A DNA stretch of 64,000 nucleotides from Gordius sp. MW1 (lineage: Eukaryota > Nematomorpha > Gordioida > Gordea > Gordiidae), in NCBI GenBank assembly GCA_964036665.1, contig OZ038530.1, forward strand, positions 2,418,001 to 2,482,000, written 5' to 3'. Below the pieces are notes generated by a model. The model worked only from the letters and a program-made list of their open reading frames with translations. It searched no databases and was not told where the DNA came from. Each line of letters starts with the position of its first letter. The stretch's first letter is position 1. The position numbers and the translations under genes are program-made. This document shows positions 3,001 to 58,629 of the stretch, piece after piece.

Positions 3001-3414
3001 TTCTGATTCTGAGAAATTTTTACTTTTTATCATCGAAACCACGTCTGAAAACGACAACTTTCATCGGATGCATACGGTTGAAAGAAAAATATGTGAAAAA
3101 ATTTGAGGTAAAAATATTTATTTTTTTCGATTCTATGTGAAAGAGCGTAAAAAAATATATAAAAGTAAGCCAATTTGAGAATCCTATTATCCTCGATTGA
3201 CTTCCGCAAAGAGGTTTTAAGCTGCGAGAACTATCATTTTGACAAAAGACAATGTTTTATTGTTGCGATTAGTTTGTTGTATCGCAACGTGAGTGCTTAA
3301 TTTTTGAAAACTGCTCTATGCGATCATGATTTCAAAGTAATAGTTTTTAGATTCTGAAAAATTTTTACTTGGAATCATAGGAACCACGTCTGAAAACGAC
3401 AACTTTCATCGGAT
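1..3414 (+). repeat. Seven-monomer tandem duplication, 2414-bp spacing
   Basis: Positions 1 to about 1000 reappear at 2415 to about 3414 with the same variants, including the GGAATCATAGGAACC patch at about 958 and 3372 and the one-base-shorter T-run near 363 and 2777. The copies separate where GAAAACGG (about 1001) faces GCATACGG (about 3415). Spacing is 7 monomers. The left copy starts outside the window, so the full length of the duplicated segment is unknown. Confidence 0.85.
1001..2640 (+). repeat. Type-G monomer cluster, left
   Basis: These monomers carry a linked set of variants not found in the main higher-order blocks: GAAAACGGTTGAAAGG, CGCCTCTATG, ATATAAGAG, GAATACCATTATCC in some, CCGAAAAGAGG and AAGATGCGAG. 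One unit has the rarer GATTGTATTCCG form (1471-1482). The same set recurs near 12.7-12.9, 13.75-13.85, 16.7-17.1, 31.1-31.6, 51.0-53.5 and 58.6-61.2 kb. Some units inside the range are mixed or belong to other classes. Confidence 0.6.
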
Positions 3415-3725
3415 GCATACGGTTGAAAGGAAAATATGTGAAAAATTTTGAGGTAAAAATATTTATTTTTTTCGATTCTATGTGAAAGAGCATAAAAAAA
3501 TATATAAAAGTAAGCCAATTTGAGAATCCTATTATCCTCGATTGACTTCCGCAAAGAGGTTTTAAGCTGCGAGAACTATCATTTTGACAAAAGACAACGT
3601 TTTATTGTTGCGATTAGTTTTTTGTATCGCAACGTGAGTGCTTAATTTTTCAAAAATGCACTATGCGATCATGATTTCAAAGTAATAGTTTTCTGATTCT
3701 GATAAATTTTTACTTTTTATCATCG

Positions 3726-6700: not shown

Positions 6701-9700
6701 TGCAACGTTTTATTGTTGCGATTAGTTTGTTGTATCGCAACGTGAGTGCTTAATTTTTCAAAAATGCACTATGCGATCATGATTTCAAAGTAATAGTTTT
6801 CTGATTCTGAGAAATTTTTACTTTTTATCATCGAAACCACGTCTGAAAACGACAACTTTCATCGGATGCATACGGTTGAAAGAAAAATATGTGAAAAATT
6901 TTGGGGTAAAAATATTTATTTTTTTCGATTCTATGTGGAAAGCATAAAAAAATATATAAAAGTAAGCCAATTTGAGAATCCTATTATCCTCGATTGACTT
7001 CCGCAAAGAGGTTTTAAGCTGCGAGAACTATCATTTTGACAAAAGACACTGTTTTATTGTTGCGACTAGTTTGTTGTATCGCAACGTGAGTGCTTAATTT
7101 TTGAAAACTGCTCTATGCGATCATGATTTCAAAGTAATAGTTTTTAGATTCTGATAAATTTTTACTTGGGATCATAGAAACCACGTCTGAAAACGACAAC
7201 TTTCATCGGATGCATACGGTTGAAAGGAAAATATGTGAAAAATTTTGAGGTAAAAATATTTATTTTTTTCAATCCTATGTGAAAGAGCATAAAAAAATAT
7301 ATAAGAGTAAGCCAATTTGAGAATCCTATTATCCTCGATTGACTTCCGCAAAGAGGTTTTAAGCTGCGAGAACTATCATTTTGACAAAAGACAACGTTAT
7401 ATTGTTGCGATTAGTTTGTTGTATCGCAACGTGAGTGCTTAATTTTCGAAAATGGCTCTATGCAATCATGATTTCAAAGTAATAGTTTTCAGATTCTGAT
7501 AAATTTTTACTTTTTATCATCGAAACCACGTCTGAAAACGACAACTTTCATCGGATGAATACGGTTCAAAGAAAAATATGTGAAAAATTTTGGGGTAAAA
7601 ATATTTATTTTTTTCAATCCTATGTGAAAGAGCATAAAAAAATATATAAGAGTAAGCCAATTTGAGAATCCTATTATCCTCGATTGACTTCCGCAAAGAG
7701 GTTTTAAGCTGCGAGAACTATCATTTTGACAAAAGACAACGTTATATTGTTGCGATTAGTTTGTTGTATCGCAACGTGAGTGCTTAATTTTCGAAAATGG
7801 CTCTATGCAATCATGATTTCAAAGTAATAGTTTTCAGATTCTGATAAATTTTTACTTTTTATCATCGAAACCACGTCTGAAAACGACAACTTTCATCGGA
7901 TGCATACGGTTGAAAGAAAAATATGTGAAAAATTTTGAGGTAGAAATATTTATTTTTTTCGATTCTATGTGAAAGAACGTAAAAAAATATATAAAAGTAA
8001 GCCAATTTGAGAATCCTATTATCCTCGATTGACTTCCGCAAAGAGGTTTTAAGCTGCGAGAACTATCATTTTGACAATAGACAAGGTTTTATTGTTGCGA
8101 TTAGTTTGTTGTATCGCAACGTGAGTGCTTAATTTTTCAAAAATGCACTATGCGATCATGATTTCAAAGTAATAGTTTTCTGATTCTGAGAAATTTTTAC
8201 TTTTTATCATCGAAACCACGTCTGAAAACGACAACTTTCATCGGATGCATACGGTTGAATGAAAAATATGTGAAAAATTTTGAGGTAGAAATATTTATTT
8301 TTTTCGATTCTATGTGAAAGAACGTAAAAAAATATATAAAAGTAAGCCAATTTGAGAATCCTATTATCCTCGATTGACTTCCGCAAAGAGGTTTTAAGCT
8401 GCGAGAACTATCATTTTGACAAAAGACAAGGTTTTATTGTTGCGATTAGTTTGTTGTATGGCAACGTGAGTGCTTAATTTTTGAAAACTGCTCTATGCGA
8501 TCATGATTTCAATGTAATAGTTTTTAGATTCTGATAAATTTTTACTTGGGATCATAGAAACCACGTCTGAAAACGACAACTTTCATCGGATATGAATACG
8601 GTTCAAAGAAAAATATGTGAAAAATTTTGAGGTAAAAATATTTATTTTTTTCGATTCTATGTGAAAGAGCATGAAAAAATATATAAAAGTAAGCCAATTT
8701 GAGAATCCTATTATCCTCGATTGACTTCCGCAAAGAGGTTTTAAGCTGCGAGAACTATCATTTTGACAAAAGACAACGTTTTATTGTTGCGATTAGTTTG
8801 TTGTATCGCAACGTGAGTGCTTAATTTTTGAAAATGGCTCTATGCAATCATGATTTCAAAGTAATAGTTTTCAGATTCTGATAAATTTTTACTTAATATC
8901 ATAGAAACCACGTCTGAAAACGACAACTTTCATCGGATGAATACGGTTCAAAGAAAAATATGTGAAAAATTTTGGGGTAAAAATATTTATTTTTTTCGAT
9001 TCTATGTGGAAAGCATAAAAAAATATATAAAAGTAAGCCAATTTGAGAATCCTATTATCCTCGATTGACTTCCGCAAAGAGGTTTTAAGCTGCGAGAACT
9101 ATCATTTTGACAAAAGACACTGTTTTATTGTTGCGATTAGTTTGTTGTATCGCAACGTGAGTGCTTAATTTTTCAAAAATGCACTATGCGATCATGATTT
9201 CAAAGTAATAGTTTTCTGATTCTGAGAAATTTTTACTTTTTATCATCGAAACCACGTCTGAAAACGACAACTTTCATCGGATGCATACGGTTGAAAGAAA
9301 AATATGTGAAAAATTTTGAGGTAGAAATATTTATTTTTTTCGATTCTATGTGAAAGAACGTAAAAAAATATATAAAAGTAAGCCAATTTGAGAATCCTAT
9401 TATCCTCGATTGACTTCCGCAAAGAGGTTTTAAGCTGCGAGAACTATCATTTTGACAAAAGACAAGGTTTTATTGTTGCGATTAGTTTGTTGTATCGCAA
9501 CGTGAGTGCTTAATTTTTGAAAACTGCTCTATGCGATCATGATTTCAAAGTAATAGTTTTTAGATTCTGATAAATTTTTACTTGGGATCATAGAAACCAC
9601 GTCTGAAAACGACAACTTTCATCGGATATGAATACGGTTCAAAGAAAAATATGTGAAAAATTTTGAGGTAAAAATATTTATTTTTTTCGATTCTATGTGA

Positions 9701-10352
9701 AAGAGCATGAAAAAATATATAAAAGTAAGCCAATTTGAGAATCCTATTATCCTCGATTGACTTCCGCAAAGAGGTTTTAAGCTGCGAGAACTATCATTTT
9801 GACAAAAGACAACGTTTTATTGTTGCGATTAGTTTGTTGTATCGCAACGTGAGTGCTTAATTTTTGAAAATGGCTCTATGCAATCATGATTTCAAAGTAA
9901 TAGTTTTCAGATTCTGATAAATTTTTACTTTTTATCATCGAAACTACGTCTGAAAACGACAACTTTCATCGGATGAATGCGGTTCAAAGAAAAATATGTG
10001 AAAAATTTTGAGGTAAAAATATTTATTTTTTTCGATTCTATGTGAAAGAGCGTAAAAAAATATATAAAAGTAAGCCAATTTGAGAATCCTATTATCCTCG
10101 ATTGACTTCCGCAAAGAGGTTTTAAGCTGCGAGAACTATGATTTTGACAAAATGCAACGTTTTATTGTTGCGATTAGTTTGTTGTATCGCAACGTGAGTG
10201 CTTAATTTTTCAAAAATGCACTATGCGATCATGATTTCAAAGTAATAGTTTTCTGATTCTGAGAAATTTTTACTTTTTATCATCGAAACCACGTCTGAAA
10301 ACGACAACTTTCATCGGATGCATACGGTTGAAAGAAAAATATGTGAAAAATT
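3726..10352 (+). repeat. Ten-monomer tandem duplication, 3452-bp spacing
   Basis: About 3726-6900 recurs at about 7178-10352, offset 3452 bp. Rare variants are shared at the exact offset: TTTCAATCCTATG (3817 and 7269, again 4162 and 7614), GACAATAGACAAGG (4621 and 8073), GGTTGAATGAAAAAT (4801 and 8253), TATGGCAAC (about 5007 and 8459), ACTTAATATCATAG (about 5441 and 8893) and the GGATATGAAT 2-bp insertion (5136 and 8588; 6172 and 9624). I saw no difference between the copies in the parts compared. The duplication therefore looks very recent, or it could be an assembly duplication. Confidence 0.85.
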
Positions 10353-13300
10353 TTGAGGTAGAAATATTTATTTTTTTCGATTCTATGTGAAAGAACGTAA
10401 AAAAATATATAAAAGTAAGCCAATTTGAGAATCCTATTATCCTCGATTGACTTCCGCAAAGAGGTTTTAAGCTGCGAGAACTATCATTTTGACAAAAGAC
10501 AAGGTTTTATTGTTGCGATTAGTTTGTTGTATCGCAACGTGAGTGCTTAATTTTTGAAAACTGCTCTATGCGATCATGATTTCAAAGTAATAGTTTTTAG
10601 ATTCTGATAAATTTTTACTTGGGATCATAGAAACCACGTCTGAAAACGACAACTTTCATCGGATGAATACGGTTCAAAGAAAAATATGTGAAAAATTTTG
10701 AGGTAAAAATATTTATTTTTTTCGATTCTATGTGAAAGAGCATGAAAAAATATATAAAAGTAAGCCAATTTGAGAATCCTATTATCCTCGATTGACTTCC
10801 GCAAAGAGGTTTTAAGCTGCGAGAACTATCATTTTGACAAAAGACAACGTTTTATTGTTGCGATTAGTTTGTTGTATCGCAACGTGAGTGCTTAATTTTT
10901 GAAAATGGCTCTATGCAATCATGATTTCAAAGTAATAGTTTTCAGATTCTGATAAATTTTTACTTGGGATCATAGAAACCACGTCTGAAAACGACAACTT
11001 TCATCGGATGAATACGGTTCAAAGAAAAATATGTGAAAAATTTTGGGGTAAAAATATTTATTTTTTTCGATTCTATGTGGAAAGCATAAAAAAATATATA
11101 AAAGTAAGCCAATTTGAGAATCCTATTATCCTCGATTGACTTCCGCAAAGAGGTTTTAAGCTGCGAGAACTATCATTTTGACAAAAGACAACGTTTTATT
11201 GTTGCGATTAGTTTGTTGTATCGCAACGTGAGTGCTTAATTTTTGAAAACTGCTCTATGCGATCATGATTTCAAAGTAATAGTTTTTAGATTCTGATAAA
11301 TTTTTACTTGGGATCATAGAAACCACGTCTGAAAACGACAACTTTCATCGGATGAATACGGTTCAAAGAAAAATATGTGAAAAATTTTGAGGTAAAAATA
11401 TTTATTTTTTTCGATTCTATGTGAAAGAGCATGAAAAAATATATAAAAGTAAGCCAATTTGAGAATCCTATTATCCTCGATTGACTTCCGCAAAGAGGTT
11501 TTAAGCTGCGAGAACTATCATTTTGACAAAAGACAACGTTTTATTGTTGCGATTAGTTTGTTGTATCGCAACGTGAGTGCTTAATTTTTGAAAATGGCTC
11601 TATGCAATCATGATTTCAAAGTAATAGTTTTCAGATTCTGATAAATTTTTATTGGGATCATAGAAACCACGTCTGAAAACGACAACTTTCATCGGATGAA
11701 TACGGTTCAAAGAAAAATATGTGAAAAATTTTGGGGTAAAAATATTTATTTTTTTCGATTCTATGTGGAAAGCATAAAAAAATATATAAAAGTAAGCCAA
11801 TTTGAGAATCCTATTATCCTCGATTGACTTCCGCAAAGAGGTTTTAAGCTGCGAGAACTATCATTTTGACAAAAGACAACGTTATATTGTTGCGATTTAT
11901 TTGTTGTATCGCAACGTGAGTGCTTAATTTTCGAAAATGACTCTATGCAATCATGATTTCAAAGTAATAGTTTTCAGATTCTGATAAATTTTTACTTTTT
12001 ATCATCGAAACCACGTCTGAAAACGACAACTTTCATCGGATGAATGCGGTTCAAAGAAAAATATGTGAAAAATTTTGAGGTAAAAATATTTATTTTTTTC
12101 GATTCTATGTGAAAGAGCGTAAAAAAATATATAAAAGTAAGCCAATTTGAGAATCCTATTATCCTCGATTGACTTCCGCAAAGAGGTTTTAAGCTGCGAG
12201 AACTATCATTTTGACAAAATGCAACGTTTTATTGTTGCGATTAGTTTGTTGTATCGCAACGTGAGTGCTTAATTTTTCAAAAATGCACTATGCGATCATG
12301 ATTTCAAAGTAATAGTTTTCTGATTCTGAGAAATTTTTACTTTTTATCATCGAAACCACGTCTGAAAACGACAACTTTCATCGGATGCATACGGTTGAAT
12401 GAAAAATATGTGAAAAATTTTGAGGTAGAAATATTTATTTTTTTCGATTCTATGTGAAAGAACGTAAAAAAATATATAAAAGTAAGCCAATTTGAGAATC
12501 CTATTATCCTCGATTGACTTCCGCAAAGAGGTTTTAAGCTGCGAGAACTATCATTTTGACAAAAGACAAGGTTTTATTGTTGCGATTAGTTTGTTGTATG
12601 GCAACGTGAGTGCTTAATTTTTGAAAACTGCTCTATGCGATCATGATTTCAAAGTAATAGTTTTTAGATTCTGATAAATTTTTACTTGGGATCATAGAAA
12701 CCACGTCTGAAAACGACAACTTTCATCGGATGAAAACGGTTGAAAGGAAAATATGTGAAAAATTTTGAGGTAAAAACATTTATTTTTTTCGCCTCTATGT
12801 GAAAGAGCATAAAAAAATATATAAGAGTAAGCCAATTTGAGAATCCTATTATCCTCGATTGACTTCCGAAAAGAGGTTTTAAGATGCGAGAACTATCATT
12901 TTGACAAAAGACAACGTTTTATTGTTGCGATTAGTTTGTTGTATCGCAACGTGAGTGCTTAATTTTTCAAAAATGCACTATGCGATCATGATTTCAAAGT
13001 AATAGTTTTCTGATTCTGATAAACTTTTACTTTTTATCATCGAAACCACGTCTGAAAACGACAACTTTCATCGGATGCATACGGTTGAAAGAAAAATATG
13101 TGAAAAATTTTGAGGAGAAATATTTATTTTTTTCGATTCTATGTGAAAGAACGTAAAAAAATATATAAAAGTAAGCCAATTTGAGAATCCTATTATCCTC
13201 GATTGACTTCCGCAAAGAGGTTTTAAGCTGCGAGAACTATCATTTTGACAAAAGACAAGGTTTTATTGTTGCGATTAGTTTGTTGTATCGCAACGTGAGT

Positions 13301-13857
13301 GCTTAATTTTTGAAAACTGCTCTATGCGATCATGATTTCAAAGTAATAGTTTTTAGATTCTGATAAATTTTTACTTGGGATGATAGAAACCACGTCTGAA
13401 AACGACAACTTTCATCGGATGAATACGGTTCAAAGAAAAATATGTGAAAAATTTTGAGGTAAAAATATTTATTTTTTTCGATTCTATGTGAAAGAGCATG
13501 AAACAATATATAAAAGTAAGCCAATTTGAAAATCCTATTATCCTCGATTGACTTCCGCAAAGAGGTTTTAAGCTGCGAGAACTATCATTTTGACAAAAGA
13601 CAAAGTTTTATTGTTGCGATTAGTTTGTTGTATCGCAACGTGAGTGCTTAATTTTTGAAAACTGCTCTATGCGATCATGATTTCAAAGTAATAGTTTTTA
13701 GATTCTGATAAATTTTTACTTGGGATCATAGAAACCACGTCTGAAAACGACAACTTTCATCGGATGAAAACGGTTGAAAGGAAAATATGTGAAAAATTTT
13801 GAGGTAAAAACATTTATTTTTTTCGCCTCTATGTGAAAGAGCATAAAAAAAAAACTC

Positions 13858-13870
13858 GGGCCTTCGGCCC
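13858..13870. other. GC-rich hairpin at the left edge of the insert
   Basis: GGGCC, loop TTC, GGCCC: a perfect 5-bp stem three bases inside the left boundary and directly before the polypurine tract. It is short but stands out in an AT-rich region. It could be structural or part of the element's end. No function can be assigned. Confidence 0.45.
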
Positions 13871-13874
13871 TCGT

Positions 13875-13940
13875 GGGAAGGGGGAGAAGGGAAGGGGAGT
13901 AGGGGAAGGGAAGAGGGGAAGGGAAGAGGGGAAGGGGGAA
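13875..13940 (+). repeat. G-rich polypurine tract with 13-bp repeats
   Basis: 66 nt of purines with a single pyrimidine (T at 13900). It includes direct repeats of GGGGAAGGGAAGA (period 13) and more than eight runs of three or more G. Such sequence can form G-quadruplex or triplex (H-DNA) structures, as known for polypurine mirror-like tracts. The ORF reading through it is low-complexity Gly/Lys/Glu/Arg and is not a gene. Confidence 0.8.
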
Positions 13941-13971
13941 CTCTTCTATACTCCGTATAAACGTAGCATAT

Positions 13972-13990
13972 TTGCTATGCAATTTATGGG
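13972..13990. repeat. 19-bp inverted repeat, left partner
   Basis: TTGCTATGCAATTTATGGG is the exact reverse complement of 16671-16689. It lies 117 bp inside the left boundary, whereas its partner is only 3 bp from the right boundary. It contains the element's recurrent GCATAGCAA motif in reverse. It may be a remnant of terminal inverted repeats, with the polypurine segment added outside it, or a chance product of a motif abundant in the insert. Confidence 0.6.
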
Positions 13991-14138
13991 CGAGAAAGGT
14001 GGGAAGGGGCGAGAATGCCTATAGGGGGTATTAGATGCAAAATAATTAGTTAATTAGTTATAGGCCCTTGTAGGGGAGGACATAGGGTAATTATCAATGT
14101 TAACCAATTCAAAAACGAAAAAAAATTTCGATTTATTT

Positions 14139-14255
14139 GGCCAATGGTCATTTTTTTATTGGTCAGTAGCCAGCGGGCGGTCAAAAATTCATATTATCAT
14201 TGGTATTAACATGAACAAATATTAATTTAATTTAAAAAAATTAAAAAAAAAATTT
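14139..14255 (+). repeat. Outlying minisatellite unit next to the tRNA-like sequence
   Basis: A diverged copy of the unit that is tandemly repeated at 15059-16160. It shows GGCCAATGG, a T-run, ATTGGTCAGTAGCCAGCGG, GCGGTCAAAAA, a TTATCATTGGTATTAAC segment and then a long A-rich tail. A similar copy starts at 14416, 255 bp further on, so the tRNA-like sequence lies between two copies of this unit. The A-run at 14243-14252 is also the T-run following the tRNA-like sequence on the other strand. Confidence 0.6.
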
Positions 14256-14326
14256 GTCCCCTCACTGACTTGAACCCCACACCTCCAGTTCACAAGCCGG
14301 CGCTATAACCACTATACCATGCTGGC
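14255..14326 (-). tRNA. tRNA-like sequence, probably a SINE head or tRNA pseudogene
   Basis: Read on the minus strand it starts GCCAGCA, has a Pol III A-box match TGGTATAGTGG (14319-14309) and a B-box match GGTTCAAGTCA (14276-14266), at spacing normal for tRNA genes. The anticodon arm would be CCGG/CTGG around CTTGTGAA, a loop of 8 instead of 7. The T stem pairs poorly and the acceptor strands (GCCAGCA versus AGGGGAC) do not pair, so a working tRNA is unlikely. A run of ten T follows directly on the transcribed strand (plus-strand A-run 14243-14252) and would serve as a Pol III terminator. tRNA-derived SINEs keep exactly these two boxes while losing the cloverleaf. The isotype is uncertain (GTG or TGT in the loop). 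Confidence 0.6.
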
Positions 14327-14415
14327 TTTAAAATAGTAGAAGTTATTATGTTATTTATATAGATGATGAAATAATAAAGTTGTGTTTTATGTTTAGAAAA
14401 TCAATATATATCGTC

Positions 14416-14525
14416 GGTCAGTAGCCAGCGGACGGTCAAAAAGTCATATTATCAATGGTATTAACAAAAACAAAAAATTAATTTAATGTAAAAAAAAAAT
14501 TAAAAAAAAGTTTTTTTTTAGTTTT
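14416..14525 (+). repeat. Second outlying minisatellite unit
   Basis: GGTCAGTAGCCAGCGGACGG, TCAAAAAGTCATATTATCAATGG and an A-rich tail repeat the 14161 unit with few changes. The unit lacks the GGCCAATGG half of the hairpin on its left side. It ends in a T-rich stretch near 14509-14521. Confidence 0.55.
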
Positions 14526-15058
14526 AAAAAAGGGCTAAATTCTTAAACTACCAGCCCGATTCGCTCGAAACTTTACCCGTAGGTGCCCAGGGCGGCCGGG
14601 GGTAAAATAACCTTTTCAGATTCCTAAAATACCTTTTCATTTTAAAAATATCGGACATTTCCCTGCCACACGTGCGGTGTAATATCTATGACACGTAGAA
14701 AAATTTTACTAATTATATAAACTTACGCGCGCCATCTAATAAAGTACAATTCGTGTCTGAGTTTAATAGTAGATTCAATTTAATTAGAAATAACGGGCTA
14801 TGCTTATACCTTTGAAGGAGGTTTCGAATTTTGTGTTAGTTTCTATCGATATATTTTATCGTAAATTAGAATCTAATACCTATATTATTTTTTTAAATAT
14901 TACTTTTTAGGTTTTCTATGAAATCACAATCTAATTAAATGAAATATATTAACCCAATAAAAAAATATATATGCATTTATAAGGTTAAAAATATATATTA
15001 CATAGTTGGCTGTCTGTTAGACCATCTATAATAAATTTTTAGGTTATATATAAAATTT
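14526..15058. other. Unassigned single-copy-looking stretch in the insert
   Basis: 533 bp without tandem repeats or a plausible ORF. A GC-rich patch (about 14550-14603, with CCCAGGGCGGCCGGGGG) and a smaller one (TTACGCGCGCCATC near 14724) sit in otherwise AT-rich DNA. I recognise no gene, RNA or known element here. It could be a decayed body of the element whose ends are the repeats. Confidence 0.5.
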
Positions 15059-16160
15059 GGCCAATGGTCATTTTTTTCATTGGTAAGCAGCCAGGACACG
15101 GTAAAAGTGGATATAAATTCATAAGTCAAAAAAAACGAGAAAAAAAAAATTTCGAATCACATTTTGGCCAATGGTCATTTTTTCCATCGGTCAGGAGCCA
15201 GCGGACGGCCAAAAAGTCATAATAGCAATGGTAGTAACAGGAACAATCATAATAGTCAAAAAAAAACGAAAAAATAAACTCGGATTCACATTTTGGCCAA
15301 TGGTCATTTTTTTCCATTGGTCAGCAGCCAGCACACGGTAAAAGTGGATATAAATTCACAAGAGTAAAAAAAACGAAAAAAAAATTTTCGAATCACATTT
15401 TGGCCAATGGTCATTTTTTTCCATTGGTCAGCAGCCAGGACACAATAAAAGTGGATATAAATTCATAATAGTCAAAAAAAACGAAATAAAAGTTTTCGAA
15501 TCACATTTTGGCCAATGGTCATTTTATTTCATTGGTCAGCAGCCAGCGGACGGCCAAAAAGTCATAATAGCAATGGTAGGAACAGGAACAATCATAATAG
15601 TCAAAAAAAACGAAAAAAATAATTTCGATTCACATTTTGGCCAATGGTCATTTTTTCCATCGGTCAGGAGCCAGCGGACGGCCAAAAAGTCATAATAGCA
15701 ATGGTAGTAACAGGAACAATCATAATAGTCAAAAAAAACGAAAAAATAAACTCGGATGCACATTTTGGCCAATGGTCATTTTTTTCATTGGTCAGCAGCC
15801 AACGGACGGCCAAAAAGTCTTATTATCAATGATAGTAACAAGAACAATCATAAAAGTCAAAAAAAACTCCGGGATTCTAACCCAAAAACTAGTTAAATTG
15901 CATAGCAATTAAAAGTAAACAACTTTTATTTATGTTTATTATATAACATTGGTCAGCAGCCAGCGGACGGCCAAAAAGTCATAATAGCAATGGTAGAAAC
16001 AGGAACAATTATAGTAGTCAAAAAAAACGAAAAAAATAATTTCGATTCACATTTTGGCCAATGGTCATTTTTTTCATTGGTCAGCAGCCAGCGGACGGCC
16101 AAAAATTCTTATTATCAATGATAGTAACAAGAACAATCATAAGAGTCAAAAAAAACTCCG
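15059..16160 (+). repeat. Hairpin-bearing minisatellite with 107- and 129-bp units
   Basis: GGCCAATGG starts at 15059, 15166, 15295, 15402, 15510, 15639, 15767 and 16056, giving steps of 107, 129, 107, 108, 129, 128 and 289. Each is followed by a T-run and, in most units, CATTGG, so CCAATGG/CCATTGG can form a 7-bp stem. The long unit continues GCCAGCGGACGGCCAAAAAG, then CATAATAGCAATGGTAG and ACAGGAACAATCATAATAG. The short unit instead has GCCAGGACACGGTAAAAGTGG and ATATAAATTCA. Both end in AAAAAAACGA and TTCGAATCACATTTT. Short ORFs here are by-products of the repeat. Confidence 0.85.
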
Positions 16161-16408
16161 GGATTCCAACCCCAAAACTAGTTAAATTGCATAGCAATTA
16201 AAAAGTAAACAACTTTTATTTATGTTTATTTATAACTAGTTAAATTGCATAGCATTAAAAGTAAACAACTTTTATATTTATTATATAACCAAAACTAGTT
16301 AAATTGCATAGCAATTAAAAGTAAACAACTTTTATTTATGTTAATTATATAACTAGTTAAATTGCATAGCACAACTTTTATCTATGTTTATTATATAATA
16401 GATAATTT
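15888..16408 (+). repeat. 58-bp repeats carrying the AATTGCATAGCAATT palindrome
   Basis: AACTAGTTAAATTGCATAG begins at 15888, 16177, 16234, 16293 and 16351; the last four are spaced 57-59 bp. Each unit continues with GCAATTAAAAGTAAACAAC and TTTTATTTATGTTTATTAT. ATTGC-ATA-GCAAT is an interrupted palindrome, intact in three of the five units. About 180 bp from 15767 (hairpin unit plus one 58-bp unit) is repeated at 16056, so the two repeat families were duplicated together. Between them, 15947-16055 is another minisatellite unit. Confidence 0.8.
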
Positions 16409-16442
16409 AACAAATCTTATATATAACCATTATATAACACAC

Positions 16443-16538
16443 CGAGGGAGATAGAGATGAGGGGTGGGGCACCTCTTATGCATAGCAATTAAAAATAACA
16501 CAGCGAGGGAGATAGAGATGAGGGGTGGGGCACCTCTT
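16443..16538 (+). repeat. 35-bp direct repeat pair, 61 bp apart
   Basis: 16443-16477 and 16504-16538 are identical over 35 bp: a purine-rich stretch beginning CGAGGGAGATAGAGATGAGG and ending GGGGCACCTCTT. The spacer contains another GCATAGCAATTAAAA. It has the look of a short local tandem duplication, with no coding sense. Confidence 0.8.
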
Positions 16539-16600
16539 TCTCATCCATTAATTTAAAAAAGCGATAACCTAATATACCCAATGCAAATAGATAGGGTAAC

Positions 16601-16654
16601 GGACGACGGACGACGGACGACGGACGACGGACGACGGACGACGGACGACGGACG
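16601..16654 (+). repeat. (GGACGAC)7 microsatellite
   Basis: Seven perfect copies of GGACGAC at 16601-16649 followed by a partial copy, then GGACACC. It is GC-rich in contrast to its surroundings. The minus-strand ORF through it (Arg-Arg-Pro-Ser-Ser-Val-Val repeats) is a product of the 7-bp period. Confidence 0.95.
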
Positions 16655-16670
16655 GACACCAAAAAACGAT

Positions 16671-16689
16671 CCCATAAATTGCATAGCAA
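16671..16689. repeat. 19-bp inverted repeat, right partner
   Basis: CCCATAAATTGCATAGCAA, reverse complement of 13972-13990, ends three bases before the satellite resumes. Its position at the very boundary is the best hint that the insert has a defined end. Confidence 0.6.
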
Positions 16690-19600
16690 TTAATATATAA
16701 GAGTAAGCCAATTTGAGAATACCATTATCCTCGATTGACTTCCGAAAAGAGGTTTTAAGATGCGAGAACTATCATTTTGACAAAAGACAACGTTTTATTG
16801 TTGCGATTAGTTTGTTGTATCGCAACGTGAGTGCTTAATTTTTGAAAACTGCTCTATGCGATCATGATTTCAAAGTAATAGTTTTTAGATTCTGATAAAT
16901 TTTTACTTGGGATCATAGAAACCACGTCTGAAAACGACAACTTTCATCGGATGAAAACGGTTGAAAGGAAAATATGTGAAAAATTTTGAGGTAAAAATAT
17001 TTATTTTTTTCGCCTCTATGTGAAAGAGCATGAAAAAATATATAAGAGTAAGCCAATTTGAGAATACCATTATCCTCGATTGACTTCCGAAAAGAGGTTT
17101 TAAGATGCGAGAACTATCATTTTGACAAAAGACAACGTTTTATTGTTGCGATTAGTTTGTTGTATCGCAACGTGAGTGCTTAATTTTTCAAAAATGCACT
17201 ATGCGATCATGATTTCAAAGTAATAGTTTTCTGATTCTGATAAATTTTTACTTTTTATCATCGAAACCACGTCTGAAAACGACAACTTTCATCGGATGCA
17301 TACGGTTGAAAGGAAAATATGTGAAAAATTTTGAGGTAAAAATATTTATTTTTTTCGATTCTATGTGAAAGAGCGTAAAAAAATATATAAAAGTAAGCCA
17401 ATTTGAGAATCCTATTATCCTCGATTGACTTCCGCAAAGAGGTTTTAAGCTGCGAGAACTATCATTTTGACAAAATGCAACGTTTTATTGTTGCGATTAG
17501 TTTGTTGTATCGCAACGTGAGTGCTTAATTTTTCAAAAATGCACTATGCGATCATGATTTCAAAGTAATAGTTTTCTGATTCTGAGAAATTTTTACTTTT
17601 TATCATCGAAACCACGTCTGAAAACGACAACTTTCATCGGATGCATACGGTTGAAAGAAAAATATGTGAAAAATTTTGAGGTAAAAATATTTATTTTTTT
17701 CGATTCTATGTGAAAGAACGTAAAAAAATATATAAAAGTAAGCCAATTTGAGAATCCTATTATCCTCGATTGACTTCCGCAAAGAGGTTTTAAGCTGCGA
17801 GAACTATCATTTTGACAAAAGACAACGTTTTATTGTTGCGATTAGTTTGTTGTATCGCAACGTGAGTGCTTAATTTTTGAAAATGGCTCTATGCAATCAT
17901 GATTTCAAAGTAATAGTTTTCAGATTCTGATAAATTTTTACTTGGGATCATAGAAACCACGTCTGAAAACGACAACTTTCATCGGATGAATACAATTCAA
18001 AGAAAAATATGTGAAAAATTTTGGGGTAAAAATATTTATTTTTTTCGATTCTATGTGGAAAGCATAAAAAAATATATAAAAGTAAGCCAATTTGAGAATC
18101 CTATTATCCTCGATTGACTTCCGCAAAGAGGTTTTAAGCTGCTAGAACTATCATTTTGACAAAAGACAACGTTTTATTGTTGCGATTAGTTTGTTGTATC
18201 GCAACGTGAGTGCTTAATTTTTGAAAATGGCTCTATGCAATCATGATTTCAAAGTAATAGTTTTCAGATTCTGATAAATTCTTACTTGGGATCATAGAAA
18301 CCACGTCTGAAAACGACAACTTTCATCGGATGAATACGGTTCAAAGAAAAATATGTGAAAAATTTTGGGGTAAAAATATTTATTTTTTTCGATTCTATGT
18401 GGAAAGCATAAAAAAATATATAAAAGTAAGCCAATTTGAGAATCCTATCATCCTCGATTGACTTCCGCAAAGAGGTTTTAAGCTGCGAGAACTATCATTT
18501 TGACAAAAGACAACGTTTTATTGTTGCGATTAGTTTGTTGTATCGCAACTTGAGTGCTTAATTTTTGAAAATGGCTCTATGCAATCATGATTTCAAAGTA
18601 ATAGTTTTCAGATTCTGATAAATTTTTACTTTTTATCATCGAAACCACGTCTGAAAACGACAACTTTCATCGGATGAATGCGGTTCAAAGAAAAATATGT
18701 GAAAAATTTTGAGGTAAAAATATTTATTTTTTTCGATTCTATGTGTAAGAGGGTAAAAAAATATATAAAAGTAAGCCAATTTGAGAATCCTATTATCCTC
18801 GATTGACTTCCGCAAAGAGGTTTTAAGCTGCGAGAACTATCATTTTGACAAAATGCAACGTTTTATTGTTGCGATTAGTTTGTTGTATCGCAACGTGAGT
18901 GCTTAATTTTTCAAAAATGCACTATGCGATCATGATTTCAAAGTAATAGTTTTCTGATTCTGATAAACTTTTACTTTTTATCATCGAAACCACGTCTGAA
19001 AACGACAACTTTCATCGGATGCATACGGTTGAAAGAAAAATATGTGAAAAATTTTGAGGTAGAAATATTTATTTTTTTCGATTCTATGTGAAAGAACGTA
19101 AAAAAATATATAAAAGTAAGCCAATTTGAGAATCCTATTATCCTCGATTGACTTCCGCAAAGAGGTTTTAAGCTGCGAGAACTATCATTTTGACAAAAGA
19201 CAAGGTTTTATTGTTGCGATTAGTTTGTTGTATCGCAACGTGAGTGCTTAATTTTTGAAAACTGCTCTATGCGATCATGATTTCAAAGTAATAGTTTTTA
19301 GATTCTGATAAATTTTTACTTGGGATCATAGAAACCACGTCTGAAAACGACAACTTTCATCGGATGAATACGGTTCAAAGAAAAATATGTGAAAAATTTT
19401 GAGGTAAAAATATTTATTTTTTTCGATTCTATGTGAAAGAGCATAAAAAAATATATAAGAGTAAGCCAATTTGAGAATCCTATTATCCTCGATTGACTTC
19501 CGAAAAGAGGTTTTAAGATGCGAGAACTATCATTTTGACAAAAGACAACGTTTTATTGTTGCGATTAGTTTGTTGTATCGCAACGTGAGTGCTTAATTTT

Positions 19601-22600
19601 TCAAAAATGCACTATGCGATCATGATTTCAAAGTAATAGTTTTCTGATTCTTAGAAATTTTTACTTTTTATCATCGAAACCACGTCTGAAAACGACAACT
19701 TTCATCGGATGCATACGGTTGAAAGAAAAATATGTGAAAAATTTTGAGGTAAAAATATTTATTTTTTTCGATTCTATGTGAAAGAACGTAAAAAAATATA
19801 TAAAAGTAAGCCAATTTGAGAATCCTATTATCCTCGATTGACTTCCGCAAAGAGGTTTTAAGCTGCGAGAACTATCATTTTGACAAAAGACAACGTTTTA
19901 TTGTTGCGATTAGTTTGTTGTATCGCAACGTGAGTGCTTAATTTTTGAAAATGGCTCTATGCAATCATGATTTCAAAGTAATAGTTTTCAGATTCTGATA
20001 AATTTTTACTTGGGATCATGAAAACCACGTCTGAAAACGACAACTTTCATCGGATGAATACAATTCAAAGAAAAATATGTGAAAAATTTTGGGGTAAAAA
20101 TATTTATTTTTTTCGATTCTATGTGGAAAGCATAAAAAAATATATAAAAGTAAGCCAATTTGAGAATCCTATTATCCTCGATTGACTTCCGCAAAGAGGT
20201 TTTAAGCTGCGAGAACTATCATTTTGACAAAAGACAACGTTTTATTGTTGCGATTAGTTTGTTGTATCGCAACGTGAGTGCTTAATTTTTGAAAATGGCT
20301 CTATGCAATCATGATTTCAAAGTAATAGTTTTCAGATTCTGATAAATTTTTACTTTTTATCATCGAAACTACGTCTGAAAACGACAACTTTCATCGGATG
20401 AATGCGGTTCAAAGAAAAATATGTGAAAAATTTTGAGGTAAAAATATTTATTTTTTTCGATTCTATGTGAAAGAGCGTAAAAAAATATATAAAAGTAAGC
20501 CAATTTGAGAATCCTATTATCCTCGATTGACTTCCGCAAAGAGGTTTTAAGCTGCGAGAACTATCATTTTGACAAAAGACAACGTTTTATTGTTGCGATT
20601 AGTTTGTTGTATCGCAACGTGAGTGCTTAATTTTTGAAAATGGCTCTATGCAATCATGATTTCAAAGTAATAGTTTTCAGATTCTGATAAATTTTTACTT
20701 GGGATCATAGAAACCACGTCTGAAAACGACAACTTTCATCGGATGAATACAATTCAAAGAAAAATATGTGAAAAATTTTGGGGTAAAAATATTTATTTTT
20801 TTCGATTCTATGTGGAAAGCATAAAAAAATATATAAAAGTAAGCCAATTTGAGAATCCTATTATCCTCGATTGACTTCCGCAAAGAGGTTTTAAGCTGCG
20901 AGAACTATCATTTTGACAAAAGACAACGTTTTATTTATGCGATTAGTTTGTTGTATCGCAACGTGAGTGCTTAATTTTTGAAAATGGCTCTATGCAATCA
21001 TGATTTCAAAGTAATAGTTTTCAGATTCTGATAAATTCTTACTTGGGATCATAGAAACCACGTCTGAAAACGACAACTTTCATCGGATGAATACGGTTCA
21101 AAGAAAAATATGTGAAAAATTTTGGGGTAAAAATATTTATTTTTTTCGATTCTATGTGGAAAGCATAAAAAAATATATAAAAGTAAGCCAATTTGAGAAT
21201 CCTATCATCCTCGATTGACTTCCGCAAAGAGGTTTTAAGCTGCGAGAACTATCATTTTGACAAAAGACAACGTTTTATTGTTGCGATTAGTTTGTTGTAT
21301 CGCAACTTGAGTGCTTAATTTTTGAAAATGGCTCTATGCAATCATGATTTCAAAGTAATAGTTTTCAGATTCTGATAAATTTTTACTTTTTATCATCGAA
21401 ACCACGTCTGAAAACGACAACTTTCATCGGATGAATGCGGTTCAAAGAAAAATATGTGAAAAATTTTGAGGTAAAAATATTTATTTTTTTCGATTCTATG
21501 TGTAAGAGCGTAAAAAAATATATAAAAGTAAGCCAATTTGAGAATCCTATTATCCTCGATTGACTTCCGCAAAGAGGTTTTAAGCTGCGAGAACTATCAT
21601 TTTGACAAAATGCAACGTTTTATTGTTGCGATTAGTTTGTTGTATCGCAACGTGAGTGCTTAATTTTTCAAAAATGCACTATGCGATCATGATTTCAAAG
21701 TAATAGTTTTCTGATTCTGATAAACTTTTACTTTTTATCATCGAAACCACGTCTGAAAACGACAACTTTCATCGGATGCATACGGTTGAAAGAAAAATAT
21801 GTGAAAAATTTTGAGGTAGAAATATTTATTTTTTTCGATTCTATGTGAAAGAACGTAAAAAAATATATAAAAGTAAGCCAATTTGAGAATCCTATTATCC
21901 TCGATTGACTTCCGCAAAGAGGTTTTAAGCTGCGAGAACTATCATTTTGACAAAAGACAAGGTTTTATTGTTGCGATTAGTTTGTTGTATCGCAACGTGA
22001 GTGCTTAATTTTTGAAAACTGCTCTATGCGATCATGATTTCAAAGTAATAGTTTTTAGATTCTGATAAATTTTTACTTGGGATCATAGAAACCACGTCTG
22101 AAAACGACAACTTTCATCGGATGAATACGGTTCAAAGAAAAATATGTGAAAAATTTTGAGGTAAAAATATTTATTTTTTTCGATTCTATGTGAAAGAGCA
22201 TAAAAAAATATATAAGAGTAAGCCAATTTGAGAATCCTATTATCCTCGATTGACTTCCGAAAAGAGGTTTTAAGATGCGAGAACTATCATTTTGACAAAA
22301 GACAACGTTTTATTGTTGCGATTAGTTTGTTGTATCGCAACGTGAGTGCTTAATTTTTCAAAAATGCACTATGCGATCATGATTTCAAAGTAATAGTTTT
22401 CTGATTCTTAGAAATTTTTACTTTTTATCATCGAAACCACGTCTGAAAACGACAACTTTCATCGGATGCATACGGTTGAAAGAAAAATATGTGAAAAATT
22501 TTGAGGTAAAAATATTTATTTTTTTCGATTCTATGTGAAAGAACGTAAAAAAATATATAAAAGTAAGCCAATTTGAGAATCCTATTATCCTCGATTGACT

Positions 22601-23107
22601 TCCGCAAAGAGGTTTTAAGCTGCGAGAACTATCATTTTGACAAAAGACAACGTTTTATTGTTGCGATTAGTTTGTTGTATCGCAACGTGAGTGCTTAATT
22701 TTTGAAAATGGCTCTATGCAATCATGATTTCAAAGTAATAGTTTTCAGATTCTGATAAATTTTTACTTTTTATCATCGAAACTACGTCTGAAAACGACAA
22801 CTTTCATCGGATGAATGCGGTTCAAAGAAAAATATGTGAAAAATTTTGAGGTAAAAATATTTATTTTTTTCGATTCTATGTGAAAGAGCGTAAAAAAATA
22901 TATAAAAGTAAGCCAATTTGAGAATCCTATTATCCTCGATTGACTTCCGCAAAGAGGTTTTAAGCTGCGAGAACTATCATTTTGACAAAAGACAACGTTT
23001 TATTGTTGCGATTAGTTTGTTGTATCGCAACGTGAGTGCTTAATTTTTGAAAATGGCTCTATGCAATCATGATTTCAAAGTAATAGTTTTCAGATTCTGA
23101 TAAATTT

Positions 23108-23451
23108 TTACTTGGGATCATAGAAACCACGTCTGAAAACGACAACTTTCATCGGATGAATACAATTCAAAGAAAAATATGTGAAAAATTTTGGGGTAAA
23201 AATATTTATTTTTTTCGATTCTATGTGGAAAGCATAAAAAAATATATAAAAGTAAGCCAATTTGAGAATCCTATTATCCTCGATTGACTTCCGCAAAGAG
23301 GTTTTAAGCTGCGAGAACTATCATTTTGACAAAAGACAACGTTTTATTGTTGCGATTAGTTTGTTGTATCGCAACGTGAGTGCTTAATTTTTGAAAATGG
23401 CTCTATGCAATCATGATTTCAAAGTAATAGTTTTCAGATTCTGATAAATTC
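23108..23451 (+). repeat. Reference satellite monomer (344 bp)
   Basis: A clean monomer chosen as a reference. In order it carries: the TTACTTGGGATCATAG start; the ACCACGTCTGAAAACGAC segment; the GAATACAATTCAAAG class tag; TTTTGGGGTAAAAATATTT; GTGGAAAGCAT, which is one base shorter than the GTGAAAGAGCAT form; an AATATATAA patch; CCTCGATTGACTTCCGCAAAGAGG, whose CCTC/GAGG ends can pair; the 23349-23375 dyad; GGCTCTATGCAATCATGAT; and CAGATTCTGATAAATT. The start point is arbitrary. The length is close to twice a nucleosome repeat, as known for many animal and plant satellites. Whether nucleosomes are phased here is not visible from the sequence. Confidence 0.9.
23349..23375. other. 8-bp dyad repeated in nearly every monomer
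   Basis: GTTGCGAT at 23349-23356 and its exact reverse complement ATCGCAAC at 23368-23375 are separated by 11 nt (TAGTTTGTTGT). The same arrangement occurs once per monomer throughout both array blocks. An ACGTT just upstream and the AACGT formed at the right arm give an overlapping alternative pairing. Copies with a damaged arm are few: TATGGCAAC near 5007, 8459, 12599 and 29916; TTTATGCGAT near 20935; CGCAATG near 61268. Such a dyad could be a protein-binding site or a hairpin former. Because most copies are recent duplicates, its frequency alone is not proof of selection. Confidence 0.75.
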
Positions 23452-25314
23452 TTACTTGGGATCATAGAAACCACGTCTGAAAACGACAACTTTCATCGGA
23501 TGAATACGGTTCAAAGAAAAATATGTGAAAAATTTTGGGGTAAAAATATTTATTTTTTTCGATTCTATGTGGAAAGCATAAAAAAATATATAAAAGTAAG
23601 CCAATTTGAGAATCCTATCATCCTCGATTGACTTCCGCAAAGAGGTTTTAAGCTGCGAGAACTATCATTTTGACAAAAGACAACGTTTTATTGTTGCGAT
23701 TAGTTTGTTGTATCGCAACTTGAGTGCTTAATTTTTGAAAATGGCTCTATGCAATCATGATTTCAAAGTAATAGTTTTCAGATTCTGATAAATTTTTACT
23801 TTTTATCATCGAAACCACGTCTGAAAACGACAACTTTCATCGGATGAATGCGGTTCAAAGAAAAATATGTGAAAAATTTTGAGGTAAAAATATTTATTTT
23901 TTTCGATTCTATGTGTAAGAGCGTAAAAAAATATATAAAAGTAAGCCAATTTGAGAATCCTATTATCCTCGATTGACTTCCGCAAAGAGGTTTTAAGCTG
24001 CGAGAACTATCATTTTGACAAAATGCAACGTTTTATTGTTGCGATTAGTTTGTTGTATCGCAACGTGAGTGCTTAATTTTTCAAAAATGCACTATGCGAT
24101 CATGATTTCAAAGTAATAGTTTTCTGATTCTGATAAACTTTTACTTTTTATCATCGAAACCACGTCTGAAAACGACAACTTTCATCGGATGCATACGGTT
24201 GAAAGAAAAATATGTGAAAAATTTTGAGGTAGAAATATTTATTTTTTTCGATTCTATGTGAAAGAACGTAAAAAAATATATAAAAGTAAGCCAATTTGAG
24301 AATCCTATTATCCTCGATTGACTTCCGCAAAGAGGTTTTAAGCTGCGAGAACTATCATTTTGACAAAAGACAAGGTTTTATTGTTGCGATTAGTTTGTTG
24401 TATCGCAACGTGAGTGCTTAATTTTTGAAAACTGCTCTATGCGATCATGATTTCAAAGTAATAGTTTTTAGATTCTGATAAATTTTTACTTGGGATCATA
24501 GAAACCACGTCTGAAAACGACAACTTTCATCGGATGAATACGGTTCAAAGAAAAATATGTGAAAAATTTTGAGGTAAAAATATTTATTTTTTTCGATTCT
24601 ATGTGAAAGAGCATAAAAAAATATATAATAGTAAGCCAATTTGAGAATCCTATTATCCTCGATTGACTTCCGAAAAGAGGTTTTAAGATGCGAGAACTAT
24701 CATTTTGACAAAAGACAACGTTTTATTGTTGCGATTAGTTTGTTGTATCGCAACGTGAGTGCTTAATTTTTCAAAAATGCACTATGCGATCATGATTTCA
24801 AAGTAATAGTTTTCTGATTCTTAGAAATTTTTACTTTTTATCATCGAAACCACGTCTGAAAACGACAACTTTCATCGGATGCATACGGTTGAAAGAAAAA
24901 TATGTGAAAAATTTTGAGGTAAAAATATTTATTTTTTTCGATTCTATGTGAAAGAACGTAAAAAAATATATAAAAGTAAGCCAATTTGAGAATCCTATTA
25001 TCCTCGATTGACTTCCGCAAAGAGGTTTTAAGCTGCGAGAACTATCATTTTGACAAAAGACAACGTTTTATTGTTGCGATTAGTTTGTTGTATCGCAACG
25101 TGAGTGCTTAATTTTTGAAAATGGCTCTATGCAATCATGATTTCAAAGTAATAGTTTTCAGATTCTGATAAATTTTTACTTGGGATCATGAAAACCACGT
25201 CTGAAAACGACAACTTTCATCGGATGAATACAATTCAAAGAAAAATATGTGAAAAATTTTGGGGTAAAAATATTTATTTTTTTCGATTCTATGTGGAAAG
25301 CATAAAAAAATATA

Positions 25315-28300
25315 TAAAAGTAAGCCAATTTGAGAATCCTATTATCCTCGATTGACTTCCGCAAAGAGGTTTTAAGCTGCGAGAACTATCATTTTGACAA
25401 AAGACAACGTTTTATTGTTGCGATTAGTTTGTTGTATCGCAACGTGAGTGCTTAATTTTTGAAAATGGCTCTATGCAATCATGATTTCAAAGTAATAGTT
25501 TTCAGATTCTGATAAATTTTTACTTTTTATCATCGAAACTACGTCTGAAAACGACAACTTTCATCGGATGAATGCGGTTCAAAGAAAAATATGTGAAAAA
25601 TTTTGAGGTAAAAATATTTATTTTTTTCGATTCTATGTGAAAGAGCGTAAAAAAATATATAAAAGTAAGCCAATTTGAGAATCCTATTATCCTCGATTGA
25701 CTTCCGCAAAGAGGTTTTAAGCTGCGAGAACTATGATTTTGACAAAATGCAACGTTTTATTGTTGCGATTAGTTTGTTGTATCGCAACGTGATTGCTTAA
25801 TTTTTCAAAAATGCACTATGCGATCATGATTTCAAAGTAATAGTTTTCTGATTCTGAGAAATTTTTACTTTTTATCATCGAAACCACGTCTGAAAACGAC
25901 AACTTTCATCGGATGCATACGGTTGAAAGAAAAATATGTGAAAAATTTTGAGGTAGAAATATTTATTTTTTTCGATTCTATGTGAAAGAACGTAAAAAAA
26001 TATATAAAAGTAAGCCAATTTGAGAATCCTATTATCCTCGATTGCCTTCCGCAAAGAGGTTTTAAGCTGCGAGAACTATCATTTTGACAAAAGACAAGGT
26101 TTTATTGTTGCGATTAGTTTGTTGTATCGCAACGTGAGTGCTTAATTTTTGAAAACTGCTCTATGCGATCATGATTTCAAAGTAATAGTTTTTAGATTCT
26201 GATAAATTTTTACTTGGGATCATAGAAACCACGTCTGAAAACGACAACTTTCATCGGATGAATACGGTTCAAAGAAAAATATGTGAAAAATTTTGAGGTA
26301 AAAATATTTATTTTTTTCGATTCTATGTGAAAGAGCATGAAAAAATATATAAAAGTAAGCCAATTTGAGAATCCTATTATCCTCGATTGACTTCCGCAAA
26401 GAGGTTTTAAGCTGCGAGAACTATCATTTTGACAAAAGACAACGTTTTATTGTTGCGATTAGTTTGTTGTATCGCAACGTGAGTGCTTAATTTTTGAAAA
26501 TGGCTCTATGCAATCATGATTTCAAAGTAATAGTTTTCAGATTCTGATAAATTTTTACTTGGGATCATAGAAACCACGACTGAAAACGACAACTTTCATC
26601 GGATGAATACGGTTCAAAGAAAAATATGTGAAAAATTTTGGGGTAAAAATATTTATTTTTTTCGATTCTATGTGGAAAGCATAAAAAAATATATAAAAGT
26701 AAGCCAATTTGAGAATCCTATTATCCTCGATTGACTCCCGCAAAGAGGTTTTAAGCTGCGAGAACTATCATTTTGACAAAAGACAACGTTTTATTGTTGC
26801 GATTAGTTTGTTGTATCGCAACGTGAGTGCTTAATTTTTGAAAACTGCTCTATGCGATCATGATTTCAAAGTAATAGTTTTTAGATTCTGATAAATTTTT
26901 ACTTGGGATCATAGAAACCACGTCTGAAAACGACAACTTTCATCGGATGAATACGGTTCAAAGAAAAATATGTGAAAAATTTTGAGGTAAAAATATTTAT
27001 TTTTTTCGATTCTATGTGAAAGAGCATGAAAAAATATATAAAAGTAAGCCAATTTGAGAATCCTATTATCCTCGATTGACTTCCGCAAAGAGGTTTTAAG
27101 CTGCGAGAACTATCATTTTGACAAAAGACAACGTTTTATTGTTGCGATTAGTTTGTTGTATCGCAACGTGAGTGCTTAATTTTTGAAAATGGCTCTATGC
27201 AATCATGATTTCAAAGTAATAGTTTTCAGATTCTGATAAATTTTTATTGGGATCATAGAAACCACGTCTGAAAACGACAACTTTCATCGGATGAATACGG
27301 TTCAAAGAAAAATATGTGAAAAATTTTGGGGTAAAAATATTTATTTTTTTCGATTCTATGTGGAAAGCATAAAAAAATATATAAAAGTAAGCCAATTTGA
27401 GAATCCTATTATCCTCGATTGACTTCCGCAAAGAGGTTTTAAGCTGCGAGAACTATCATTTTGACAAAAGACAACGTTATATTGTTGCGATTTATTTGTT
27501 GTATCGCAACGTGAGTGCTTAATTTTCGAAAATGGCTCTATGCAATCATGATTTCAAAGTAATAGTTTTCAGATTCTGATAAATTTTTACTTTTTATCAT
27601 CGAAACCACGTCTGAAAACGACAACTTTCATCGGATGCATACGGTTGAAAGAAAAATATGTGAAAAATTTTGAGGTAGAAATATTTATTTTTTTCGATTC
27701 TATGTGAAAGAACGTAAAAAAATATATAAAAGTAAGCCAATTTGAGAATCCTATTATCCTCGATTGCCTTCCGCAAAGAGGTTTTAAGCTGCGAGAACTA
27801 TCATTTTGACAAAAGACAAGGTTTTATTGTTGCGATTAGTTTGTTGTATCGCAACGTGAGTGCTTAATTTTTGAAAACTGCTCTATGCGATCATGATTTC
27901 AAAGTAATAGTTTTTAGATTCTGATAAATTTTTACTTGGGATCATAGAAACCACGTCTGAAAACGACAACTTTCATCGGATGAATACGGTTCAAAGAAAA
28001 ATATGTGAAAAATTTTGAGGTAAAAATATTTATTTTTTTCGATTCTATGTGAAAGAGCATGAAAAAATATATAAAAGTAAGCCAATTTGAGAATCCTATT
28101 ATCCTCGATTGACTTCCGCAAAGAGGTTTTAAGCTGCGAGAACTATCATTTTGACAAAAGACAACGTTTTATTGTTGCGATTAGTTTGTTGTATCGCAAC
28201 GTGAGTGCTTAATTTTTGAAAATGGCTCTATGCAATCATGATTTCAAAGTAATAGTTTTCAGATTCTGATAAATTTTTACTTGGGATCATAGAAACCACG

Positions 28301-34300: not shown

Positions 34301-34815
34301 TCCTATTATCCTCGATTGACTTCCGCAAAGAGGTTTTAAGCTGCGAGAACTATCATTTTGACAAAAGACAACGTTTTATTGTTGCGATTAGTTTGTTGTA
34401 TCGCAACGTGAGTGCTTAATTTTTGAAAATGGCTCTATGCAATCATGATTTCAAAGTAATAGTTTTCAGATTCTGATAAATTTTTACTTGGGATCATAGA
34501 AACCACGTCTGAAAACGACAACTTTCATCGGATGAATACAATTCAAAGAAAAATATGTGAAAAATTTTGGGGTAAAAATATTTATTTTTTTCGATTCTAT
34601 GTGGAAAGCATAAAAAAATATATAAAAGTAAGCCAATTTGAGAATCCTATTATCCTCGATTGACTTCCGCAAAGAGGTTTTAAGCTGCGAGAACTATCAT
34701 TTTGACAAAAGACAACGTTTTATTGTTGCGATTAGTTTGTTGTATCGCAACGTGAGTGCTTAATTTTTGAAAATGGCTCTATGCAATCATGATTTCAAAG
34801 TAATAGTTTTCAGAT
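25315..34815 (+). repeat. Large duplicated segment, copy 2 (empty site)
   Basis: Partner of 9720-20340. The alignment offset is 15595 bp before the internal 1722-bp duplication, about 17317-17320 bp after it, and 14478 bp to the right of the insertion point. The change of 2842 bp gives the net size of the insert. The uninterrupted site reads GCATAAAAAAATATATAAGAG at about 31161-31181. The right end is where CTTACTTGGGATCATAG here faces TTTTTATCATCGAAACTACG in copy 1. Confidence 0.8.
25914..29340 (+). repeat. Five-monomer tandem duplication, 1722-bp unit
   Basis: 25914-27635 is followed directly by a second copy from 27636 to about 29340. Shared rare variants: GATTGCCTTCCG (26041 and 27763), CCACGACTGAAAACG (26575 and 28297), GACTCCCGC (26733 and 28455), the 1-bp loss in ATTTTTATTGGG (27240 and 28962) and GCGATTTATTTG (27488 and 29210). 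The related region at 10.3-12.0 kb has one copy only and lacks several of these variants, so the duplication came after the larger segment was copied. Confidence 0.85.
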
Positions 34816-58620: not shown

Positions 58621-58629
58621 ACGACAACT

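Follow-up and report, generated by a model that had tools for sequence, protein, structure and literature searches.

The question raised by this locus is what kind of DNA has interrupted a single monomer of a long satellite array. The window, by which we mean the whole 64,000-bp stretch of Gordius sp. MW1 DNA analysed here (C4:2418001-2482000 of the searched genome G000, which comprises 211.8 Mb in 12 contigs), is occupied from position 1 to 63495 by a 345-bp satellite on the plus strand, recognized both as a single array by Tandem Repeats Finder (TRF) and by long gap-poor self-alignments. The initial annotation had described a 2842-bp insertion in one monomer, with its empty site preserved elsewhere in the array, and had held that the element could not be assigned to a known class. 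Our analysis bears out the insertion and its empty site, but the element can be assigned, as its ends, its targets and the absence of target-site duplication fit a non-autonomous Helentron (HINE, of the DINE-1 kind). We consider it about 90% probable that the insert is such an element, lying on the minus strand. The element is young and numerous, and it has no recognised coding capacity. It would be a new element of a known kind, and it opens no new class.

The element spans 13852..16693 (minus strand), as delimited by the empty-site alignment and by 38 copies with the same ends, each end being placed to within one or two A/T. These 2,842 bp have no counterpart in the array and are not satellite. 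The flanks at 13841 and 16701 align with contiguous sequence at 31161 and 31179, with offsets of 17320 and 14478 that differ by 2842; the paralogous target is therefore found at 31161..31179 (plus strand). When the flanks are joined, leaving out the AAA before CTCGGG and the AA after GCAATT, they match positions 31025-31319 without a gap over 295 bases at 99.66% identity, a value equalled over the same joined bases by the monomer at 58579-58873. With about 300 bases taken on each side, the best match is the empty monomer at 31166 (99.66% and 100%), and the runner-up reaches 98.98% and 99.67%. Compared with the block around 31161 in segments of 1,035 bp, the three nearest segments on each side are 98.8-99.8% identical, whereas 13 of the 14 other full segments and the end piece fall to 94.1-97.6%, the last downstream segment standing at 98.5%. 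Since six segments are high and most of the others lower, the empty site sits within some 6 kb of near-identical sequence (approximately 28056..34278, plus strand).

The simplest order of events is that a satellite block was duplicated first and that one of the duplicates then took the insertion, which would make this locus a clean record of block duplication followed by insertion within a satellite array. As the two blocks are near-identical and the order is reconstructed rather than seen, the site at 31161 might instead have once held a copy of the element and lost it. However, the empty monomer is an ordinary one, its A7-TATATA being shared by 19 of 21 monomers that fit the pattern GAGCAT-A(n)-T in the window (most window monomers carry a G in the run and hence do not match), and to our knowledge traceless exact loss is not expected of rolling-circle elements, so that we regard a loss as very unlikely. 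TRF counts 184 copies of the 345-bp unit over the span including the insert, or about 176 by length without it, and neither TRF nor the self-alignments show a further large interruption within 1..63495. A literature search for a 345-bp insect satellite listed only papers with unrelated titles.

The initial annotation would have been refuted by an insert that occurs only once, but we read 38 copies that share both ends. The genome search for further copies and a constant boundary, which the initial annotation had proposed, yielded 56 match rows from the best 40 scored of 5,839 first-look candidates, and we analysed the 42 rows of at least 2 kb with 1.5-kb flanks (L001-L042), leaving out 14 shorter rows. 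Being ranked by similarity, these copies are the closest relatives and no random sample. Both exact end strings are present in 38 of the 42 copies, 2,789-3,067 bp apart, with differing flanks and spread over contigs C1-C8; the strings are a 16-mer and a 24-mer picked from the window copy, and the exactness of the ends is thus partly a matter of selection. The four copies without both exact strings (L038, L039, L041 and L042) are truncated or rearranged, with inverted family sequence in the flanks of L038, L039 and L042. The location in a satellite array might have suggested translocated heterochromatin or an assembly chimera rather than an element, but this explanation is refuted by the 38 same-ended copies in differing flanks on C1-C8 and is also at odds with the exact empty site, and we give it practically no weight. 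Together, the empty-site alignment and these copies confirm the clean presence/absence pair for an element that had been claimed from the window.

The boundaries of the 38 copies show where the element inserts. On the window strand, counting outward from CTCGGG and GCAATT, all 38 copies have A at -1, -3, +1 and +2, and position -2 before CTCGGG holds A in 30 copies, T in 7 and G in 1. In terms of the element strand, all 38 have TT at the 5' boundary and T-N-T at the 3' boundary (N being T in 30, A in 7 and C in 1), and these letters may belong to the element or to the target at either boundary. The A-run/TATA patch noted earlier as the insertion point is this T-rich target viewed from the other strand. 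The A+T content is 84% in the 20 bases to the left and 77% in those to the right, compared with 67% in the further flanks.

Paralogous empty sites were present in the fetched DNA for five copies, namely, L001, L019, L027, L028 and L035. Once the AAA and AA are excluded, the fit of L001 is exact and the other four are one A short; since these sites are off by a single A, the ends of the element are uncertain by one or two A/T. The flank of L019 is an internal repeat of the same element family, and its best empty-site match, inside repeats, has one extra mismatch, an alternative match there being off by three bases. The 83% empty-site match of L008 was set aside as too weak, and those of L026 and L036 reflect their head-to-tail junction. 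None of the five sites shows a duplication longer than one or two A/T. The flanks were also examined for target-site duplications, as had been suggested from the window alone, and none was found: the mean best match over the 38 flank pairs is 3.92 nt versus 3.96 nt after shuffling, with 313 of 500 shuffles at least as high, and neither inspection by eye nor this test supports a target-site duplication. The targets are A/T-rich, and the element makes no target-site duplication.

L035 lies in a second satellite, which is 85-89% similar to the satellite starting at window position 63496. Over 63496-64000 the 345-bp array abuts the latter satellite, whose period is about 350 bp; stretches of about 200 bp are 73-75% similar, in inverted orientation, to the first satellite, and the two may be related.

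Read 5' to 3' on the minus strand, on which all features in this paragraph lie, the element consists of TT, a 5' palindromic repeat, a microsatellite, 58-bp repeats, 107/128-bp repeats, a unique part, an inverted subterminal repeat, a C/T-rich run, a hairpin and T-N-T. The 5' subterminal repeat (16671..16692), located some 2 nt inside the 5' end, is the palindrome AATTGC-TAT-GCAATT followed by TATGGG, and its predicted DNA fold has a z of -3.16, with 3 of 200 shuffles equally good. The 3' subterminal inverted repeat of 22 nt (13969..13990) is 95% complementary to 16671-16692, and between it and the 3' hairpin GGGCC-GAA-GGCCC (13858..13870), which is 6 nt inside the 3' end adopted here, runs a stretch that is G/A-rich on the window strand. 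The 7-bp microsatellite (16599..16654) varies from 21 to 70 bp across the 38 copies. The 58-bp tandem repeats (16176..16371) carry the core of the 5'-end palindrome, and this core, TGCATAGCA, occurs at 15899, 16188, 16246, 16305, 16363 and 16479 in addition to the terminal one at 16680. The central 107/128-bp tandem repeats (15247..15867) contain an internal CCAATGG...CCATTGG palindrome, one unit folding with a z of -1.29.

These features agree with most of the HINE features that we tested, namely, subterminal inverted repeats whose 5' arm is palindromic and lies some 2 nt inside the end (2-4 nt being the criterion), a short palindrome near the 3' end, a T-rich target with at least two Ts per end, a target site unmodified to within one or two A/T, and the lack of coding capacity. 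As to the last, 25 stop-to-stop frames of at least 50 aa overlap the insert, the longest having 113 aa, and no Pfam match over the cut-off was found in the six of these 25 frames that were scanned; a row for MHCassoc_trimer (22 bits, cut-off 25) was taken as chance. The 22-nt inverted repeat with its 95% complementarity could also be expected of a miniature inverted-repeat transposable element or another derivative of a terminal-inverted-repeat DNA transposon moved by cut and paste. However, such elements have terminal inverted repeats and a target-site duplication, whereas here one arm lies about 117 nt inside the end and the duplication is absent, which makes this origin exceedingly improbable.

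Several observations weigh against a HINE. The element departs from this kind in the spacing of its 3' repeat and hairpin: the 3' subterminal repeat is about 117 nt from the end instead of 38-60 bp, a spacing that is the range of the mite families and is not given as diagnostic, and the hairpin, only 6 nt inside the end, is closer to it than the 8-35 bp of mite HINEs (both mite values from PMC4067079). The 3' subterminal repeat by itself folds weakly (z -1.42), and the fold of the 3' hairpin is modest (-5.2 kcal/mol, z -1.37, with 18 of 200 shuffles as good). Moreover, Helitron-type Rep motifs outnumber Helentron-type ones in the genome by 170 to 16 pattern matches; all nine Rep motifs that we read in translation, from 8 of 12 Helitron_like_N (PF14214) loci and from L055, are of the Helitron type RGLPH; and the loci read include no autonomous copy that has these ends. 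Although the PF14214 loci were ranked by score, the occurrence of Helitron-type Reps alone among the motifs read in translation is evidence against a simple link.

The same counts speak for a canonical non-autonomous Helitron moved by the common Helitron-type Reps of this genome. The element indeed shares the 3' hairpin and the lack of target-site duplication with canonical Helitrons, but it has neither a 5' TC nor a 3' CTRR and it does not insert invariably between A and T (criteria from PMC4067079), and its hairpin is 6 nt rather than about 11 nt from the end. We therefore think a canonical Helitron improbable, and retain the non-autonomous Helentron. Many Helitron-type Rep genes are present, some of them with long frames (e.g. 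1,441 aa at C6:4549760), and canonical Helitrons may also be recent in this genome.

In favour of the Helentron reading, the genome holds Helitron_like_N domains, all 150 scored PF14214 matches being over the cut-off (best 150 of 714 candidates), and the Helentron Rep-motif pattern has 22 matches. Read by eye, 16 of these are RGSPH (15 QHRGSPHAH and 1 QKRGSPHAH), and the other six have a stop (five) or an arginine (one) at that codon. The six exact end motifs that we looked for do not occur in the 12 PF14214 loci L043-L054, which are short (about 3.5 kb each), and L055, 9 kb downstream of a Helitron-type Rep, has no hairpin and a single TTGCTATGCAA. L056 (G000:C8:31249400-31255400), between two convergent Helentron-type Rep motifs, contains clustered ends of related HINEs and repeated segments; it has no stop-to-stop frame longer than 167 aa, and we read no intact partner there. 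Because no copy that we read joins a Helentron Rep to these ends, we only infer that an autonomous Helentron partner exists.

The family is both young and large. In the unique part (1,128 columns, 38 copies) the pairwise difference has a median of 0.09%, a mean of 0.26% and a maximum of 1.07%, with 219 of 703 pairs identical, and a search with the 209-bp 3' end returned 40 of 40 scored matches at 100% identity (best 40 of 1,674 candidates). Copying is recent, because the unique part is nearly invariant and the 3' ends are fully identical. Exact genome copies number 7,040 for a 5' 23-mer, 3,841 for the 3' hairpin 17-mer and 498 for an internal unique 31-mer that serves as a subfamily marker (14582..14612, plus strand), the reversed-pattern control giving 0 in each case. 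Among the 17 copies of the 31-mer in C1:0-4.81 Mb, 15 have a hairpin in the correct orientation 464-751 bp away, the distance for the remaining two being 2,332 and 2,775 bp. Both place lists are complete for C1 as far as about 2.93 Mb; of the 58 hairpins in this part, 40 are accompanied within 4 kb by a same-strand 5' end in the right direction, at distances of 374-3,768 bp, compared with 4, 7 and 8 of the 58 for three wrong arrangements put through the same pairing. The distances of these 40 pairs cluster (25 at 1.2-2.1 kb and 8 at 2,765-2,843 bp), and therefore several size classes exist. One pair is directly head-to-tail, 5 bp apart (C8:5411519-5414326 and 5414332-5417163), and a second same-strand pair is 200 bp apart (C5:10178746-10184556); both could result from read-through past the 3' end. 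With regard to transfer through viruses, the two end patterns have no exact matches in viral_contigs. Being young and abundant, with exact end sequences that run into thousands, this non-autonomous rolling-circle family should be useful for testing how elements of this sort terminate, how they read through and how they disperse tandem repeats.

L056 also holds a sister element. Its positions 257-383 are 89% similar to insert positions 50-179 (132 columns) and include the same subterminal repeat, and a 5'-type end lies near 671-689. At 71-85 it has the palindrome CGCCC-TTC-GGGCG, which has the loop of the window hairpin on another stem and of which a 20-mer occurs in 10 genome copies. This palindrome may be the terminal hairpin of the sister, although its distance from the subterminal repeat exceeds that in the window element and it is followed by several G/C-rich palindromes of a similar kind. 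Because of the six internal cores of the 5' palindrome and the hairpin loop on a different stem, one may conceive of a modular system whose alternative starts and exchangeable terminators give rise to the size classes of 1.2-2.1 kb and about 2.8 kb, the repeats carried along seeding new satellites, a rather unlikely scheme in our judgement.

By eye, window positions 14257-14330 on the minus strand resemble the head of a tRNA-derived short interspersed element followed by a T-run. A 37-mer from this tRNA-like stretch (14281..14317, minus strand) has 285 exact copies, and all nine copies in C1:0-4.81 Mb sit 413-451 bp from a hairpin; since these copies are all in hairpin-ended elements, the stretch may be a captured sequence. 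An embedded tRNA was not confirmed: ARAGORN found none, and neither did Rfam at E<=1, its sole row, for flavi_FSE (19.4 bits, gathering 43, E 0.26), being taken as chance.

The constant ends of many copies, the repeats and palindromes, the A/T-rich targets, the lack of duplication, the recent copying and the directly head-to-tail pair fit copying by a rolling-circle Rep/helicase through a single-stranded intermediate, as outlined in PMC4067079. In such a process, the Rep/helicase of an autonomous relative would nick the 5' end, at TT followed by AATTGC-TAT-GCAATT, and one strand would be peeled off and replaced through synthesis. The 3' hairpin would mark the cut point, and the single-stranded copy would then join a T-rich site, here the A-run/TATA patch, without target-site duplication; the enzyme, the intermediate and the role of each palindrome are all presumptive.

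Compared with known systems, the element resembles the HINEs of the mite Metaseiulus occidentalis and of Culex in its palindromic subterminal repeats 2-4 nt from the 5' end, and these HINEs and Drosophila DINE-1 in the palindrome near the 3' end, the microsatellite or central repeats, and the T-rich, unmodified targets, in which each end has two or more Ts and the number of terminal Ts varies (PMC4067079). It differs in its subterminal repeat of 22 nt, as against 12-15 nt in mite HINEs, and from all of these in that the 3' repeat is farther from the end, the hairpin is nearer to it, six internal cores of the 5' palindrome are present and the partner is unlinked (PMC4067079). In organisation it is close to Cg_HINE of the oyster Crassostrea gigas, which likewise has subterminal repeats on both modules, a left microsatellite (GTCY/GTCC-like in several Cg_HINE), central satellite-like repeats, a 3' palindrome and TT targets without duplication, and for which an autonomous partner could likewise not be linked (PMC7492417). 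On the other hand, its sequences and central repeats are other than those of Cg_HINE, and it carries several kinds of repeats together with a unique part (PMC7492417).

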